Source: an uncultured Spirochaetales bacterium (GTDB lineage Bacteria; UBP6; UBA1177). From it: DNA of 64,000 nucleotides. The stretch lies in assembly GCA_902774115.1 (NCBI GenBank), contig CACYHH010000001.1, positions 62,001 to 126,000 of the forward strand, in the 5' to 3' direction. The notes under the pieces are model-generated. The model searched no databases. It had not been told where the DNA came from and worked only from the letters and a program-made list of their open reading frames with translations. A program made the translations under genes and the position numbers. The first letter of the stretch is position 1. Each line of letters starts with the position of its first letter. Of this stretch, positions 48,811 to 55,990 are shown piece after piece.

Positions 48811-49171
48811 TTATGATTTAGCGTCGTATTCCCTGCTTTTTTCTTCAAGCAGATTAAAATCGCAGCAGAATTTCGCGATTTTGCCGGTTGTTTTCCGTAT
48901 AGATGCCGTTAAGTGCTTTTTCAGACTTTTCGCAGTTTTCAAAAATTAGAAAACGGTCGATATCGACATTTTTCCATGATTTGTGTTTTTCCTTAGCGGA
49001 AGAAAGCGGAATCACATATTCATTTCCTTTGTCTTCAACAAGAATTCCAAGATAAGGTTTTGTTTCATAACCGACAGGCTGCCAGTATACTTCCTTGCAG
49101 AAATCGTGAAGATATTTCAAATATTTCTGATCTATAGAAATGAATTTCAGATTATTTTTCAGAGAGAACAC
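48811..49171 (-). pseudogene. Type III toxin (ToxN/AbiQ family), frameshifted
   Basis: The gene starts at GTG (49,169-49,171) with GAGG 6 nt upstream. Its first 77 codons match ToxN/AbiQ endoribonucleases: FISIDQKYLKYL, KPYLGILVEDKGNEY, IPLSSAKEKHKSWKN. That frame ends at 48,854. From about 48,945 a shifted frame carries the conserved C-terminus: FLKTAKSLKKHL, then KIAKFCCDFNLLEEKSREYD, ending at 48,811. About 45-50 middle residues expected in the family are missing. So the toxin is inactivated by a deletion and frameshift. The family match is by recognition of the motif order; a homology search is needed to confirm it. Confidence 0.75.
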
Positions 49172-49181
49172 AGTTTTCCTC

Positions 49182-49210
49182 AAAAAAAAATAGGCTGCCC
49201 GAAAGCAGCC
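49182..49210 (-). terminator. Rho-independent terminator ahead of the type III toxin
   Basis: GGCTGC (49,205-49,210 as the complement) pairs with GCAGCC around a 6-nt loop, followed on the minus strand by TATTTTTTTTTT (U-tract, 49,182-49,192). It lies between the putative antitoxin RNA and the GTG start, where type III loci keep a leaky terminator that sets the RNA:toxin ratio. Confidence 0.8.
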
Positions 49211-49264
49211 CTCGTTAATCTTCATCTCTTTGCGGAAATCCGCAGGTTAATGGAGACCTTCCGA
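49205..49264 (-). ncRNA. Putative type III antitoxin RNA remnant
   Basis: From the predicted start (about 49,264) to the terminator, the transcript would be about 60 nt. It has two hairpins: TGCGG/CCGCA at 49,231-49,244 and the terminator stem. Each is preceded by ATTAAC (complement of GTTAAT at 49,246-49,251 and 49,214-49,219), 32 nt apart. This resembles one repeat unit and part of another of a type III antitoxin array, shorter than described examples. Sequence similarity between units is limited to the ATTAAC-hairpin plan. Confidence 0.45.
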
Positions 49265-49338: not shown

Positions 49339-49692
49339 TTAAATGTGTTTGCTTGGGTGGCTTTGTATTTCGCTTCCTTTATGTTGGATATGCGGAGGTT
49401 TTAAGATATGCCGTTTAATGATTTTCGAGCTTCTTTGAGATAAATCTGCCAATTCCTGAGTCGTGATATCCGGATTTTTAGTAATCAGTTCCTCGGTCCA
49501 TCTGTCGAGATCTTCATCGTGAGGGAGATCAACATAATATTTATCCCAACTCTTTCCTGTAGACCGCTCATTTAAAATCGCCAGATTGGAACGAGGGATT
49601 ATGTACATCTGGCAAATCTTGTTGCTGATGGAAACATACTGAGTTCCTTTCGGATCTCCGTCAATCAGATACGTTGTTATTGTCTTGCCCAT
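49339..49692 (-). CDS. Chimeric ORF: GIY-YIG protein start fused to HTH tail
   Basis: A 117-residue open frame. Residues 1-43 match the N-terminus of a small family of GIY-YIG nuclease-type island proteins (TYLIDGDPKGTQYVSISNK, MYIIPRSNL). Residues 60-105 match the C-terminal winged HTH of AAA_4/AlbA_2-type proteins (WTEELITKNPDITTQELADL, IIKRHIL). The nuclease domain and ATPase body are both missing. It looks like a deletion fusion of two island genes. Whether it is expressed is unknown; no convincing ribosome site was found. Confidence 0.5.
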   Translation of the reverse strand: MGKTITTYLIDGDPKGTQYVSISNKICQMYIIPRSNLAILNERSTGKSWDKYYVDLPHDEDLDRWTEELITKNPDITTQELADLSQRSSKIIKRHILKPPHIQHKGSEIQSHPSKHI

Positions 49693-49713: not shown

Positions 49714-51714
49714 TTATTTTTTAATGTTTTTTTCTTTTCTCAAATTCTCCAATCCGACAACAAAAACTCTGTTTGCTAACCACAAGTCATCTTCTATCTT
49801 CAACAACAAAATGGCAAGCAAACGAAGAAACGTGAGGTATGCGATAGAGTGTTCATTTTCATCGTTTACGGGAGATGTACTTCCGTGGGAATAGTGATTT
49901 CTGTAAGCCGGACCATTAGTGAAAGTTCTATTATCAAGATAATAACTAAAATAATCACGTTCAGGTTTGCTCAACAAGTAATCATCTTTAACTAACCATC
50001 CCTTTTCAAACATTTCATCAAGAATTTTTCGTTCTGTTTCATTATAGTGCCAATAAGAGCATACGCCGTATTCCCATAAAGATTTCAAAACATTTATGGC
50101 AGAGGGATTAACAATATAAAGATGCCCATCGGGATTAACATCAATGAACCCGTGTTTTATAAGAAAATCCAAGTGAGGTTTCTGAAAATCTTCATAATTT
50201 GAATAAAGAACATTATTTTCTTTTTCAAGTAATTCTACCAAAGAACTGTAGTTTTTGTCTTCAAATGGCTTAACATAGTATAGCAACGAATTGAAGGAAC
50301 CAAACAAGTCCCGAAGTACAGTTAAAATCTCATTATTGTTTTCCGCGATTTCATAATATTTAGAAGACAGTAAACTTTTTACATCTTCGATTTTTAATGG
50401 TTTTGAGAACCTTATCAAATCAGTATCGATTTCATCTGTTTCAATAAATATATTGTATTGTTTAGCAATGGAATCTAATTCCGGACATAATACGCGACAT
50501 TTGTTTAATGAAAAATCATTTATATTCGGGAAGTTTATCGGTAGGCTCGGATAACAGTATGCTTCTTTAAGATAGTGCTCATAAAACTGTTTCAGTTCTA
50601 ATTCAAAAGAACTGTCAATCTTTTTTAGAACTTCCTCGTAAGCGCATAACTGATGTATAGCCAAGTTATTTCTATTCATGAAATCTGTGTATGATGGATA
50701 AGAATGCTGTCCTTTATCTATCAAGAAAAGTTCTATAGGATTCGTTTCGGTTATCTTGTTAATCAAATCTAGCAGGAAGTGTTCATTCAGCCATCCGAAA
50801 AGTGAAATACAATTACCGACACGGTTTCTATTATCACAATTTCTAACATAGGGAATGCTATAGGTGTAAATTAGGTTTCCGTCTTTATCAAATTTAAAAT
50901 CTGCGGGTTTAATTTCTTCTTTATCTATAAATTGTACACCCTCAAGCCAATGGGTTGTTGCTGCTTTCGGATTGTTCACTAATTCATCGTTGAGTTTTTT
51001 TGCTAATCTCTCTGCAAGAAGTCTTGTTTTAGGCGAAAGCACTATCTCTTTCTTGTCATCTTTGATTTGGATAATCAATCGCACATAATTCAAATTTGGT
51101 TCTTCGCTTTGCAAGTAATTTATGAGTATTTGCTCTTTATCATCTAAAGTAAGGTTTGATGGAAGAAATAATTCTTTTTTCTCATTCATTTCCTGTTTAA
51201 CTTCATACTTATCAAGAATGATATGAGCACTGCTTGCGTCGCTTAGAAGTATTTCACGAATAACATTCTTAAACTTTTCTACTATTCCTTTGCACTCTAA
51301 AATATCGCGAACACAACCAATATTTTCTTTCAATATTTCATGCAAAATTTCTGGTTCAATCAATTTATGTAAACTATAGCTATCTATTATTTCCCAAAAA
51401 GTTTTTTTGTATGGCCAGTCTAATAGTTCGAATTCACTCTTTATCATTTTAGGATTAAGACTGTTAAAGAACTTGGTTATTATATTGCTATATCCGCTCA
51501 CAGAGTCTTTTCGCGCATTATATTCTTTATCTGTCCATTCCTTCAATCTGCAACCATCTTCAATCATCCGTTTGATATGCCAAAGTTCAATAATTCCTGA
51601 CAAATCTGAAGGAATATCACCTTCAACCACTTGATGAATTCGCCTTTCTGCCATTTCCAAATAATGTGCCAAAGATAAATCATGTTTTGAAAAATAACAA
51701 ACCTTATCCAACAT
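49714..51714 (-). CDS. Restriction-island protein of unknown function, HEPN-like C-terminus
   Basis: A 666-residue protein immediately after the specificity gene (gap 40 nt), so likely expressed with it. The N-terminal 350 residues are helical and not recognised. The C-terminal part (about 590-650) contains R605-N606-H607-Y608-S609-H610-G611, the RxxxxH pattern of HEPN ribonucleases, next to helices EHSIAYLTFLRLLAILLLKI. In defence systems such domains often cut RNA when activated. It has no known domain in its middle section that I can name. Function is unproven; the association with the modification genes is seen directly. Confidence 0.65.
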   Translation of the reverse strand: MLDKVCYFSKHDLSLAHYLEMAERRIHQVVEGDIPSDLSGIIELWHIKRMIEDGCRLKEWTDKEYNARKDSVSGYSNIITKFFNSLNPKMIKSEFELLDWPYKKTFWEIIDSYSLHKLIEPEILHEILKENIGCVRDILECKGIVEKFKNVIREILLSDASSAHIILDKYEVKQEMNEKKELFLPSNLTLDDKEQILINYLQSEEPNLNYVRLIIQIKDDKKEIVLSPKTRLLAERLAKKLNDELVNNPKAATTHWLEGVQFIDKEEIKPADFKFDKDGNLIYTYSIPYVRNCDNRNRVGNCISLFGWLNEHFLLDLINKITETNPIELFLIDKGQHSYPSYTDFMNRNNLAIHQLCAYEEVLKKIDSSFELELKQFYEHYLKEAYCYPSLPINFPNINDFSLNKCRVLCPELDSIAKQYNIFIETDEIDTDLIRFSKPLKIEDVKSLLSSKYYEIAENNNEILTVLRDLFGSFNSLLYYVKPFEDKNYSSLVELLEKENNVLYSNYEDFQKPHLDFLIKHGFIDVNPDGHLYIVNPSAINVLKSLWEYGVCSYWHYNETERKILDEMFEKGWLVKDDYLLSKPERDYFSYYLDNRTFTNGPAYRNHYSHGSTSPVNDENEHSIAYLTFLRLLAILLLKIEDDLWLANRVFVVGLENLRKEKNIKK

Positions 51715-51754
51715 TGATTTATCTATACTCCATAATGCTTTTCAAGCCTTTCCT

Positions 51755-53155
51755 TTAATATTCCCCTATAATTATTTTTTCAATCTGTTTTTTAGCTTCT
51801 TCCAACAAAGCGTCTCCTTCTTTTTGAAGTTGTTTCGCATTAGAACGAATTCTTTGGATTTGGTTGATAATATAAGCTTGTTTATCCATATCAGGAATAG
51901 GTAACATAATGGATGCTATCTCATCTAGATTGATATTGGCTCTAGCTACAGGACGTTTTAATCGATCCAAATTGAGTTGCCCAATCGGTGATTTCAAAAC
52001 CTCTTTTACATATTCAGGGTTAAGTCCATCTTTCAATCGTACTAATGCAATTGCTTGATTAATATTGGCTTCCTTGTCTGAAAGGTATATGCCGACTTGT
52101 CCAATAGTGGCTCCAACTATAGCAATCATAATATCATTTTTAACGACTTTTGAAGATTTCATTTTAGTATTATGAATTTCTTTTGTAATATAAAGCAGAT
52201 TGTTAAAATCTATATTCCCGGCAATATCAATATCTCCGCTACGAATAAATGCTACACCTTGTTCAGAGGAAGTATAATCGTTTCCTCCAGATTTTGGAGT
52301 TATACCACTAGTGATTAGTGATGAGATTTCTTTTAATGATTTCATTATATATTTTGATTGTTTTAGTGTTGCAAATGCTTGCTCAAAATATGGCTGGTGG
52401 TAGTGAGTATCAAAACGGTTGCCAAGAAGGGATTGCAAGTTAAGTTTGTAACTGGTTCGCGTTTCATGTTTTTCAGGTAAATAAATACCTAATTCCGTTA
52501 ATATTAAAGAATCTATCCCATCTAATAATTGCTTCGCTTCTTGAATTTTGTTCGATCTCGCATGTTGTGCTTTTAAATAAATATCGACAATTTCTTGTTG
52601 AACTTCAACAGGTGGAACTGGAATAGGAAGATTGCTGTATTCTTCGGCATTAATATTTGGCTGTCCTGTTATTCTCTGAGTAACTTTTACCCAATCAGAA
52701 AACAGTGATAATTTTGTGAAGATAAAAACGTAATCTGGAGATATTTGGCTAGCATCTACAACAAATCTAATTAAATAACCAGCATAGAAACAAGGTTCCT
52801 TAACGCGATCTGTTTTATGGATATATGATTTTCCGACAGTGTTTCCGCTTCGAGCAATTAGAATGTCGTTGTTGTTTAGAATATATTTATTTTCAACTTT
52901 TTTGGCTGTAACTCCAATGTTATTATCCAAAGATCCGTTTACATCAATATCAGTAATTCTAATATATCTTGGACTTTCATTATTTTCACGCGGAATTCCA
53001 GCTTCTCCTGCTCCGTATTGCGGTTTACCTGTTAAGAAACGACTTAAAGGATAGGAAGGATATTTAAAGTTTGCGAGTCTATGGTGATACAAAACGAATG
53101 AGTTATCGTATCTGCCGCCAATTATTTCTTTAATATGTATTTTTTCTACAATCAT
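51755..53155 (-). CDS. hsdS: Type I-like specificity subunit HsdS
   Basis: A 466-residue target-recognition subunit with two TRD halves, each with the usual internal motifs (YIRITDIDVNG, NNNDILIARSGNT / VAFIRSGDIDIAG, VVKNDIMIAIVGAT) and the paired conserved helices (VEVQQEIVDIYLKAQHARSNK and the second copy DKQAYIINQIQRIRSNAKQLQKE in parts). It sets the DNA sequence recognised by the methyltransferase-nuclease upstream. The specificity cannot be predicted. It starts 1 nt after the upstream gene stop region, so the pair is coupled. Confidence 0.93.
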   Translation of the reverse strand: MIVEKIHIKEIIGGRYDNSFVLYHHRLANFKYPSYPLSRFLTGKPQYGAGEAGIPRENNESPRYIRITDIDVNGSLDNNIGVTAKKVENKYILNNNDILIARSGNTVGKSYIHKTDRVKEPCFYAGYLIRFVVDASQISPDYVFIFTKLSLFSDWVKVTQRITGQPNINAEEYSNLPIPVPPVEVQQEIVDIYLKAQHARSNKIQEAKQLLDGIDSLILTELGIYLPEKHETRTSYKLNLQSLLGNRFDTHYHQPYFEQAFATLKQSKYIMKSLKEISSLITSGITPKSGGNDYTSSEQGVAFIRSGDIDIAGNIDFNNLLYITKEIHNTKMKSSKVVKNDIMIAIVGATIGQVGIYLSDKEANINQAIALVRLKDGLNPEYVKEVLKSPIGQLNLDRLKRPVARANINLDEIASIMLPIPDMDKQAYIINQIQRIRSNAKQLQKEGDALLEEAKKQIEKIIIGEY

Positions 53156-53156
53156 A

Positions 53157-55166
53157 TTAGTTGTTTTGAGCTATAAATTCATGAATTTGTTGTGCTACTT
53201 CGGGTAATTCGTTTCCTGAAATACTTTTCCCTGTAGCATCATATCCGATATTCTCAACTTCAAACATAAGAACTTCATAATCTTTGGAATATTCGAAGAC
53301 TTCTTTTTTGTATAATTCCAACATCCGTTCTGCTCTTTGATCTTTATCTAATCCTTTTTCCTCACGAACTTTTGCTTTTATATCGGTCAAAGTTTTTTCA
53401 AATTTCTGAGTTAATTCTTTCGGGTGTTTTTTCAGGAACAAAACAGAGGATTTTACCCCAGCCTTGACATGTGCGAAAGTGTGTTGCGGTAACGATACAA
53501 CAGCCAATATTCTAAAATGCTCAATCAGCCAATCTCGTACATACTGACTGGTGGAGTTGGTTAAAATGCCGTCAGGAATTACAATTGCCAGATAGCCGTT
53601 TTCTTCATTGAGATATCTATAGCATCGTTCCAAAAAAAGTACTTCTGTGTTTTGTGAAGTGCGCCATTTATTTTTGTTGTTATCATCTGCAATACGGTCT
53701 TTAATTTCAGTTATACCCAAGTTCTTTTCAAATAATTCATATTCCTTATAATATCCGACTTCATCAGCTTTAACAGAAGAACCAAAAGGCGGATTTGTCA
53801 TTATTAAGTCAAAAGTGCCGTCTTGAAAACAGAGATTGCGGTTTTCTATTTCAATGCTGTAATTGTTTTTCAAGCCGTCATTTGTCACAATATTTGTATG
53901 TCCGTCATCGTGAATAATCATATTCATTTTGGCAACACGGGAAATTTGCTCATTAATCTCAATGCCATAAAGATGCTTTTCTGCAAATTCATGCCAATAG
54001 TTTTTCCATGTTGCGCTGCCGATTTCATTTTTTCCATAAATGTCATCGGCTTCATCTCTGACATACTTCAATGCTTGAAGAAGGAATCCGCCGCTGCCAC
54101 AAGAAGTGTCAAGAACTTTCCAATTCCTGTCAATGCCTATTGCCTTAACCATAAATTCAACTATTGGTTTCGGGGTAAAGAATTGTCCGAAATCACCGCG
54201 AAAGAAATCGCCCATAAAGCTCTGAAAAGCAACCCCTTTGGCATCAAGATTAGTTTTGGATAGATTTATGTCCTGCAAATATTGAACAACCGTATAGATT
54301 TTATGCTTATCAAGTTTTATATCATCCTTGAAAACTTCAGAGTCCTTTTTTCTGCCTTGTTCATACAGTTCTCGAACTCGTTTTTCGAGTTCTACTTTAG
54401 CTTTCTTGTTATCTTCATCGTCAGCATAGTTTATAATCTGGAAATCAAAAGGTTCACCTTTGCTTTTTGGGTTATTTTCACGCCAACGCTCATCCCAAAT
54501 TTTACAAAAAATAAGTTTGTCCAATTCGTCAAATGCTGTGGTTGGAGCTAATGCGCCGCCACCCCATAAAGCATCGTGTGCAGATTTGAATTTTTTAACC
54601 AATTCTGATTGAGTTCCTTCGGTTGGCTCTAATCCTCCTTTTGTGTATTTAAACCGGTTTACATTTCCGTCACGTTTTGGAATGTCGCTAATGGCTTTTC
54701 TTGCAACTGGTGCAGCACTTGTGATTTCAAAATATTCATCCTTGATGCCTGAAGTTACCCAAACATATCTCGCTGCTTTTGCGTGAGCATAGCTAAATGC
54801 TTGATCTACTGCGACTTGGAACTGACGTTCGTTGATTTGATCTTCCTTGCATTCAACAACAATCAGAATTTTGCTATGAGAACCATTATAAACCAAAATA
54901 TCGGCTTCTTTAGTGTCTGAACCAATCTGAACAGATTCATTTATTGAAATATTTTCAGGAGGGTATTCGTAATCATAAACTAATTTCAAAAAAGCTGCGG
55001 ACTGAACAAATTCTTCAGGATTCTGCAATCGTCTTTTGGTCTTGTTGTAACAATTGTATTGAATTACTGAACAATCATCATTAATGGTAATTATCTTGTC
55101 TTTGATTGCTCTTTTGTAAAGTTCCTTTGAAAGGAGTTCTTGTATTTCTTCCCGTGATTTAGGCAT
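53157..55166 (-). CDS. Fused PD-(D/E)xK nuclease and N6-adenine methyltransferase
   Basis: A 669-residue restriction-modification polypeptide. Residues about 60-130 have an HsdR_N-type nuclease core: D89 (KEADILVY) and E105-K107 (VVECKE). Residues 310-600 are a gamma-class N6-adenine methyltransferase: TSCGSGG (354-360) and NPPF (458-461). There is no helicase/translocase domain and no separate hsdR gene nearby. The arrangement fits BcgI-like or type I-related systems where R and M share a chain and S is separate. Length and motifs support this. Confidence 0.9.
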   Translation of the reverse strand: MPKSREEIQELLSKELYKRAIKDKIITINDDCSVIQYNCYNKTKRRLQNPEEFVQSAAFLKLVYDYEYPPENISINESVQIGSDTKEADILVYNGSHSKILIVVECKEDQINERQFQVAVDQAFSYAHAKAARYVWVTSGIKDEYFEITSAAPVARKAISDIPKRDGNVNRFKYTKGGLEPTEGTQSELVKKFKSAHDALWGGGALAPTTAFDELDKLIFCKIWDERWRENNPKSKGEPFDFQIINYADDEDNKKAKVELEKRVRELYEQGRKKDSEVFKDDIKLDKHKIYTVVQYLQDINLSKTNLDAKGVAFQSFMGDFFRGDFGQFFTPKPIVEFMVKAIGIDRNWKVLDTSCGSGGFLLQALKYVRDEADDIYGKNEIGSATWKNYWHEFAEKHLYGIEINEQISRVAKMNMIIHDDGHTNIVTNDGLKNNYSIEIENRNLCFQDGTFDLIMTNPPFGSSVKADEVGYYKEYELFEKNLGITEIKDRIADDNNKNKWRTSQNTEVLFLERCYRYLNEENGYLAIVIPDGILTNSTSQYVRDWLIEHFRILAVVSLPQHTFAHVKAGVKSSVLFLKKHPKELTQKFEKTLTDIKAKVREEKGLDKDQRAERMLELYKKEVFEYSKDYEVLMFEVENIGYDATGKSISGNELPEVAQQIHEFIAQNN

Positions 55167-55375: not shown

Positions 55376-55990
55376 CTAAAAATCTTTCAGCAGATTTTCA
55401 ACACAAACATCGGCATTTAGTTTCAAATCATCTTTTACATGATGTCCCAAAGTGAAGAGATGAACAAAAATGCCGTTGCGGCGAGCAGTTTTTATTGCCG
55501 GAACAAAATCGCTGTCGCCTGTGACGAGAAGTATCTGCTTGGAGATATTGTTGTAGCTTATCCATGCGATATCGAGACCGATTTTGATATCAACACCTTT
55601 CTGTGCCAAGTCAAGATCAAAACTTTCATCGCTGTAAGATGTTTCGTCATAACATTTCTTTTTCAATTTCCAGCCTGAAAAAGAAAGCTGTCCTTCTCTG
55701 AATGCAAAAAAATCCAAGCCTCGGATTTCATTGATTAAATTCAGACTTTCCTTGTATTGAGGTGTTTTTGACAAATCAAGAGCTTTCTTTGAAACAGGGT
55801 AGGATGTTTTTGCATCGCACGGCTTGCAGTCATAAAAATAGACTCGATAGGCATTAGTGCCACAACAGCCTGATTTTTCTATGATTTTGCCGACAAAATC
55901 TTTGATTTTCAAAGCCGAAATATTTTCTTTGAAAGCCGCATGATACTTCTTTCTCAAAAAACCGCCGTCAATCATTACTGCTGTTTCCAT
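55376..55990 (-). CDS. NYN-domain protein (LabA/DUF88 type)
   Basis: A 204-residue PIN-like protein. Acidic residues of the NYN active site are D8 (VMIDGGF), D134 and D140 (KGVDIKIGLDI) and D159/D161 (TGDSDFVPAI). Such proteins are metal-dependent RNases. It is the island gene nearest to the thioesterase gene, and a TTGACT / TATGAA promoter pair (56,098-56,103 and 56,076-56,081, 16 bp apart) may drive it. Association with the restriction locus is by position only. Confidence 0.87.
   Translation of the reverse strand: METAVMIDGGFLRKKYHAAFKENISALKIKDFVGKIIEKSGCCGTNAYRVYFYDCKPCDAKTSYPVSKKALDLSKTPQYKESLNLINEIRGLDFFAFREGQLSFSGWKLKKKCYDETSYSDESFDLDLAQKGVDIKIGLDIAWISYNNISKQILLVTGDSDFVPAIKTARRNGIFVHLFTLGHHVKDDLKLNADVCVENLLKDF

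Follow-up and report, generated by a model that had tools for sequence, protein, structure and literature searches.

BsaXI is a Type IIB restriction-modification (RM) enzyme in which one fused RM chain pairs with a specificity (S) subunit encoded separately, the assembly being (RM)2S (PMC11997821). HEPN RNases carry Rx4-6H, in which the arginine is followed by a polar residue, and no fewer than 16 HEPN clades have been connected with RM systems, the model case being PrrC-PrrI (PMC3710099). A locus in an uncultured Spirochaetales bacterium, within a 64,000-nucleotide stretch of DNA that was analysed as a whole (the window), contains three open reading frames on the minus strand. The RM chain gene (53157-55166) encodes 669 amino acids, the S (HsdS-like) gene (51755-53155) encodes 466, and the third gene, PDC-S56 (49714-51714), encodes 666 and has an RNHYSH motif at about 49885-49902. 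The genes follow one another in that order, spaced by 1 and 40 nt. The G + C content of the three-gene stretch is about 0.32-0.37 versus about 0.45 in the flanks, as expected of genes in an acquired island. A preliminary description gave coordinates, gaps and motif that are all confirmed by a check of open reading frames and residues, and it proposed a new defence operon. The RM and S layout, however, is that of the known Type IIB enzymes BcgI and BsaXI, and the third gene is the catalogued candidate PDC-S56. The locus is not a new three-gene system; it is a shuffled defence island. It probably represents two independent defence modules that neighbour each other in a single island, acquired horizontally and partly decayed.

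The RM chain carries an N-terminal PD-(D/E)xK nuclease domain (HSDR_N_2, residues 50-163, E=5e-16) and an N6-adenine methyltransferase domain (N6_Mtase, residues 314-625, E=4e-37), and no helicase domain was found in it by the Pfam scan. The reading of this gene as a nuclease-methylase fusion that has no translocase is thus upheld, as is that of a separate S subunit: Pfam Methylase_S matches the second protein in two stretches (E=6e-18), which represent two target-recognition domains, and PADLOC assigns it to Specificity_I. The RM chain matches PADLOC PDLC03030 with 1184 bits, and its nearest solved structure is RM.BsaXI (8w0p; E=3e-37). All four catalytic residues of BsaXI (E73, D90, E105 and K107) are kept in the RM chain, as E77, D89, E105 and K107, and the methylase part retains DTSCGSGG and NPPF as intact motifs. 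Since a single nuclease-methylase chain with no translocase and a separate S subunit matches the BsaXI design, the arrangement belongs to a known class, and the predicted products of the first two genes match a Type IIB-like (RM)+S enzyme. The likeness to BcgI and BsaXI comprises the fusion of a nuclease to an N6-adenine methylase, the separate S, the lack of a helicase and the conserved E/D/E/K residues. The chain differs in length, with 669 amino acids here and 916 in BsaXI; cleavage on both sides of a bipartite site, as expected of Type IIB, is putative here.

By homology and the conserved catalytic residues, the S subunit would recognise a bipartite site, and the RM chains would methylate that site on host DNA and cut unmodified DNA near it without translocation. 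RM+S pairs that lack PDC-S56 exist among remoter relatives of the RM chain (27-38% identity): L068 belongs to the window's own genome, L069 and L071 to sister species, and L065 to a genome from another phylum. No match to the RM chain was found in plasmids at E 1e-100, and the related-locus search and the phage collection contained no viral homologue of it. The RM chain also resembles MAD2 (298 bits) and the S subunit resembles MAD5 (81 bits). Membership in MADS, the methylation-associated defence system, is rejected, as both scores are far under the curated cut-offs of 720 and 400 bits, respectively; no further MADS gene was recognised among the six proteins scanned. A gene encoding an NYN-domain RNase-like protein (55376-55990) shares the minus strand with the RM gene and begins its intergenic distance 209 nt upstream of it. 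It is considered to lie outside the conserved unit because it is absent in front of the RM gene in the sister species locus L004.

The third protein had been described as unassigned. It indeed matches no Pfam or NCBIfam family, but PADLOC lists it as PDC-S56 (PDLC05039), and the match is full-length (E=1.8e-164, 547 bits, residues 2-649 of 666 and profile positions 5-643 of 649). PDC-S56 is already catalogued there as an uncharacterised candidate family. The 'S' in the PADLOC name denotes a single-gene candidate, and the location behind an RM pair here is unusual for the family. No paper naming PDC-S56 was found in the literature searched, and no significant sequence relative was detected in the PDB.

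An alignment of 22 PDC-S56 homologues from the window's genus, Bacteroidota, Pseudoalteromonas, Enterococcus plasmids and IMG/VR contigs places the RNHYSH motif at residues 605-610 of the window protein, with R605, N606, Y608 and H610 identical in 22/22. About 21 columns are invariant over the 666 residues. When 20 invariant columns were placed at random, four fell within some stretch of six residues in 0.4% of simulations; the motif is more than chance. E585, upstream of the motif, is also invariant, and no lysine or arginine follows four residues later as in Ex3[KR], a HEPN feature that is common, not universal. The four invariant motif residues, together with the Rx4-6H spacing and the polar asparagine, make a HEPN-type RNase active site likely in the C-terminal part of PDC-S56. 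The earlier term HEPN-like is appropriate as regards the Rx4H motif, which is invariant across the family, and the HEPN fold is a prediction from the motif only. PrrC-PrrI and C6orf70/DUF4209 are similar in having Rx4H with an asparagine after the arginine near the C terminus, and RM genes nearby. PDC-S56 differs from PrrC and RloC in that no ABC ATPase domain was found by Pfam or NCBIfam, and from the RM-linked HEPN RNases in having no significant profile match and a history separate from that of the RM pair.

It may also be that PDC-S56 is not a HEPN RNase, that RNxYxH has a structural or a nucleic-acid- or ligand-binding role and that the protein acts by another effector mechanism. The profile and fold searches are consistent with this alternative. 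None of the HEPN profiles gave a significant match, and DUF4209/C6orf70 was the only one to appear, below significance, with E=0.057 in one of seven full-length members and 0.16 for the C-terminal part of the L037 protein; a single-sequence hhalign comparison gave a probability of 0.8%. AlphaFold models, which rest on shallow alignments of 4-6 sequences, have a pLDDT of 69 and a pTM of 0.52 for the whole protein and a pLDDT of 69 and a pTM of 0.56 for residues 480-666. Foldseek searches with these modest-confidence models, full-length or C-terminal, found no significant fold match and no HEPN match; with alignments so shallow, this does not refute a HEPN fold. The C-terminal model weakly resembles winged-helix regulators. 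On the other side, the motif with a polar asparagine after the arginine is typical of HEPN (PMC3710099) and invariant in the 22 homologues, and it lies in the sole region giving the non-significant DUF4209 hit. A non-HEPN function is considered rather unlikely.

With the HEPN-type reading, PDC-S56 would be a candidate anti-phage protein that works on its own. The N-terminal part, large and helical, would sense infection or keep the protein inactive, and RNA of the host or the phage would be cut by the C-terminal RNxYxH domain as a HEPN-type RNase, probably leading to abortive infection. Domain content, conserved residues, the boundary between the modules and their separate histories are shown by the sequence; we infer the activity, the trigger, the target and the independence of action. 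PDC-S56 thereby gains a testable mechanism, that of an RNxYxH RNase.

Comparison with the sister species locus L004 (the same contig as G009:C40) shows how the island has been rearranged. The order there is RM, S, a 614-amino-acid protein (L004:7148-8992), PDC-S56 and GIY-YIG/DUF4357; PDC-S56 carries a frameshift in this MAG, and the GIY-YIG/DUF4357 protein is complete. The N-terminal part of the 614-amino-acid protein is DGQHR-like (TIGR03187, E=4e-7, under cut-off), and the C-terminal part has a weak match to TIR/nucleoside-deoxyribosyltransferase-like sequences; the protein is possibly an unlisted defence effector. In the window, positions 51723-51758 (minus strand) display the last ~11 codons and stop of this DGQHR/TIR-like gene, as seen by comparison with L004 8950-8992: the window sequence reads LKERLEKHYGV-stop and the L004 gene ends LVKRLEKHYGV-stop. 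As the same 3′ end is kept between hsdS and PDC-S56, the 614-amino-acid gene has been deleted from the window, and the 40-nt gap is, on this sequence evidence, the deletion scar of a lost gene. A tight spacing therefore need not signify an operon of cooperating parts.

Two genes on the minus strand downstream of PDC-S56 are truncated. A GIY-YIG/DUF4357 gene (49339-49692; PADLOC PDC-S14, residues 2-45) has its first 43 codons (49564-49692) homologous to the 275-amino-acid L004 gene; the nucleotide alignment stops at 49564, and beyond this point the frame runs on into unrelated sequence, which matches HTH weakly. Further downstream, a ToxN/AbiQ-type toxin gene (48854-49225) matches Pfam ToxN positions 1-71 of 159 (E=9e-18), and a ToxI-like tandem repeat array was not found beside it. 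The scar between S and PDC-S56, the truncated GIY-YIG, the truncated ToxN with no repeat array beside it and the frameshifted PDC-S56 of the sister MAG could all point to a locus that is mostly non-functional debris with inactive RM or PDC-S56 genes. All three window open reading frames are nevertheless full length with intact catalytic motifs, and it is very unlikely that the locus as a whole is debris.

The two modules also have separate histories, with the boundary behind hsdS. In a fourfold-site comparison of two genomes, the window and the sister species, divergence is 61% for RM, 56% for S and 18-20% for PDC-S56 (Fisher p=4e-20 for RM/S versus PDC-S56), and 0/17 fourfold-degenerate sites differ at the GIY-YIG start. 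This unequal divergence indicates that RM/S and PDC-S56 have different histories, whichever half was replaced. GIY-YIG/DUF4357 has the appearance of a mobile cassette: it is found directly behind hsdS at L071:5896-6723 (sister species G006) and behind PDC-S56 at L004:11009-11836, and it has a weak RAMA match. The L071 gene is 91% identical to that of L004 and is behind a different RM-S pair; cassettes thus seem to be exchanged at the site that follows hsdS. The locus shows swapping and deletion of defence modules at this position.

PDC-S56 is sparsely distributed. In a survey of 386 genomes, comprising the window's phylum and a wide sample of other bacteria, it was found only in two members of the genus. 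It was found in 5/395 Bacteroidota genomes (two of the five by short weak matches) and in 4/220, 8/217 and 5/201 genomes of three Bacteroidota families. A search of genome contigs with the window protein alone as query gave one relative, and a distant DNA search of E. coli genomes gave no match. No viral homologue was present in the related-locus search or the phage collection; a degenerate motif scan detected three PDC-S56 genes in IMG/VR contigs. This uncharacterised candidate is thus found in several bacterial phyla, in prophage-like contigs and on plasmids.

The neighbourhoods of 24 PDC-S56 loci were inspected, a limited sample rather than a census. In one Bacteroidota genome (L031), 6 nt separate PDC-S56 from the gene of a Type ISP RM enzyme in front of it; in another (L102), it is 80 nt before a Z1-helicase/methylase pair, with TmtA nearby. 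Other neighbours are Gabija genes (L029), Avs4 (L097), TmtA (L101) and a UvrD-like helicase (L099), and in two Enterococcus plasmids (L009 and L010) PDC-S56 is beside serine recombinases. Two prophage-like contigs (L035 and L037) and a Pseudoalteromonas replicon (L008) display no recognised defence neighbour, and an adjacent RM gene is missing at most loci. With such varied or absent defence neighbours among the loci inspected, PDC-S56 is a promiscuous resident of defence islands. Among these 24 loci, the order RM-S-PDC-S56 is confined to two species, both in the window's genus; the expectation that the three genes travel together holds for these two species, and none of the PDC-S56 loci inspected outside the genus had this RM pair. 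An obligate trio is ruled out by the RM+S pairs that occur alone, the varied PDC-S56 contexts and the unequal divergence.

A coupling of the PrrC type, in line with the two-layer defence of the preliminary description, has also been considered: the RM-S complex would keep a HEPN-type PDC-S56 in check, and a phage that disables the restriction enzyme would thereby free RNA cutting as a second layer of defence. Consistent with this are the tight same-strand arrangement in two species, the position of PDC-S56 directly behind the Type ISP enzyme in L031 and the known linkage of HEPN clades to RM systems. The combination was not found outside the genus, however; RM/S and PDC-S56 diverge differently, which is not the joint inheritance of RNase and RM; another gene is present between S and PDC-S56 in the sister species; most PDC-S56 loci are without an adjacent RM gene; and no ABC ATPase domain like that of PrrC and RloC was found. 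The proximity persists in two species, yet nothing found requires the coupling, which is judged unlikely. As the arrangement is kept in two species and RM neighbours are present in L031 and L102, some functional link between PDC-S56 and RM may still exist alongside the favoured two-module organisation. A broader speculation, to which we give only a slim chance, is that the slot behind hsdS of Type IIB-like enzymes in this genus takes exchangeable effectors (DGQHR/TIR-like, PDC-S56 and GIY-YIG/DUF4357), including a new HEPN-type RNase family, that become active once the restriction complex has been bypassed or inhibited, as in a plug-in PrrC-PrrI.

Two additional associations were observed around PDC-S56. 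Genes of the Schlafen/AlbA_2 ATPase type are beside or near it in three Bacteroidota loci (L093, L094 and L101), at distances of 54 nt in L094 and 144 nt in L093, and represent a possible recurrent partner. In one IMG/VR contig (L036:2240-4157), a DndB-like gene and an unassigned gene of 315 amino acids are present downstream of PDC-S56, which echoes the DGQHR neighbour in L004.
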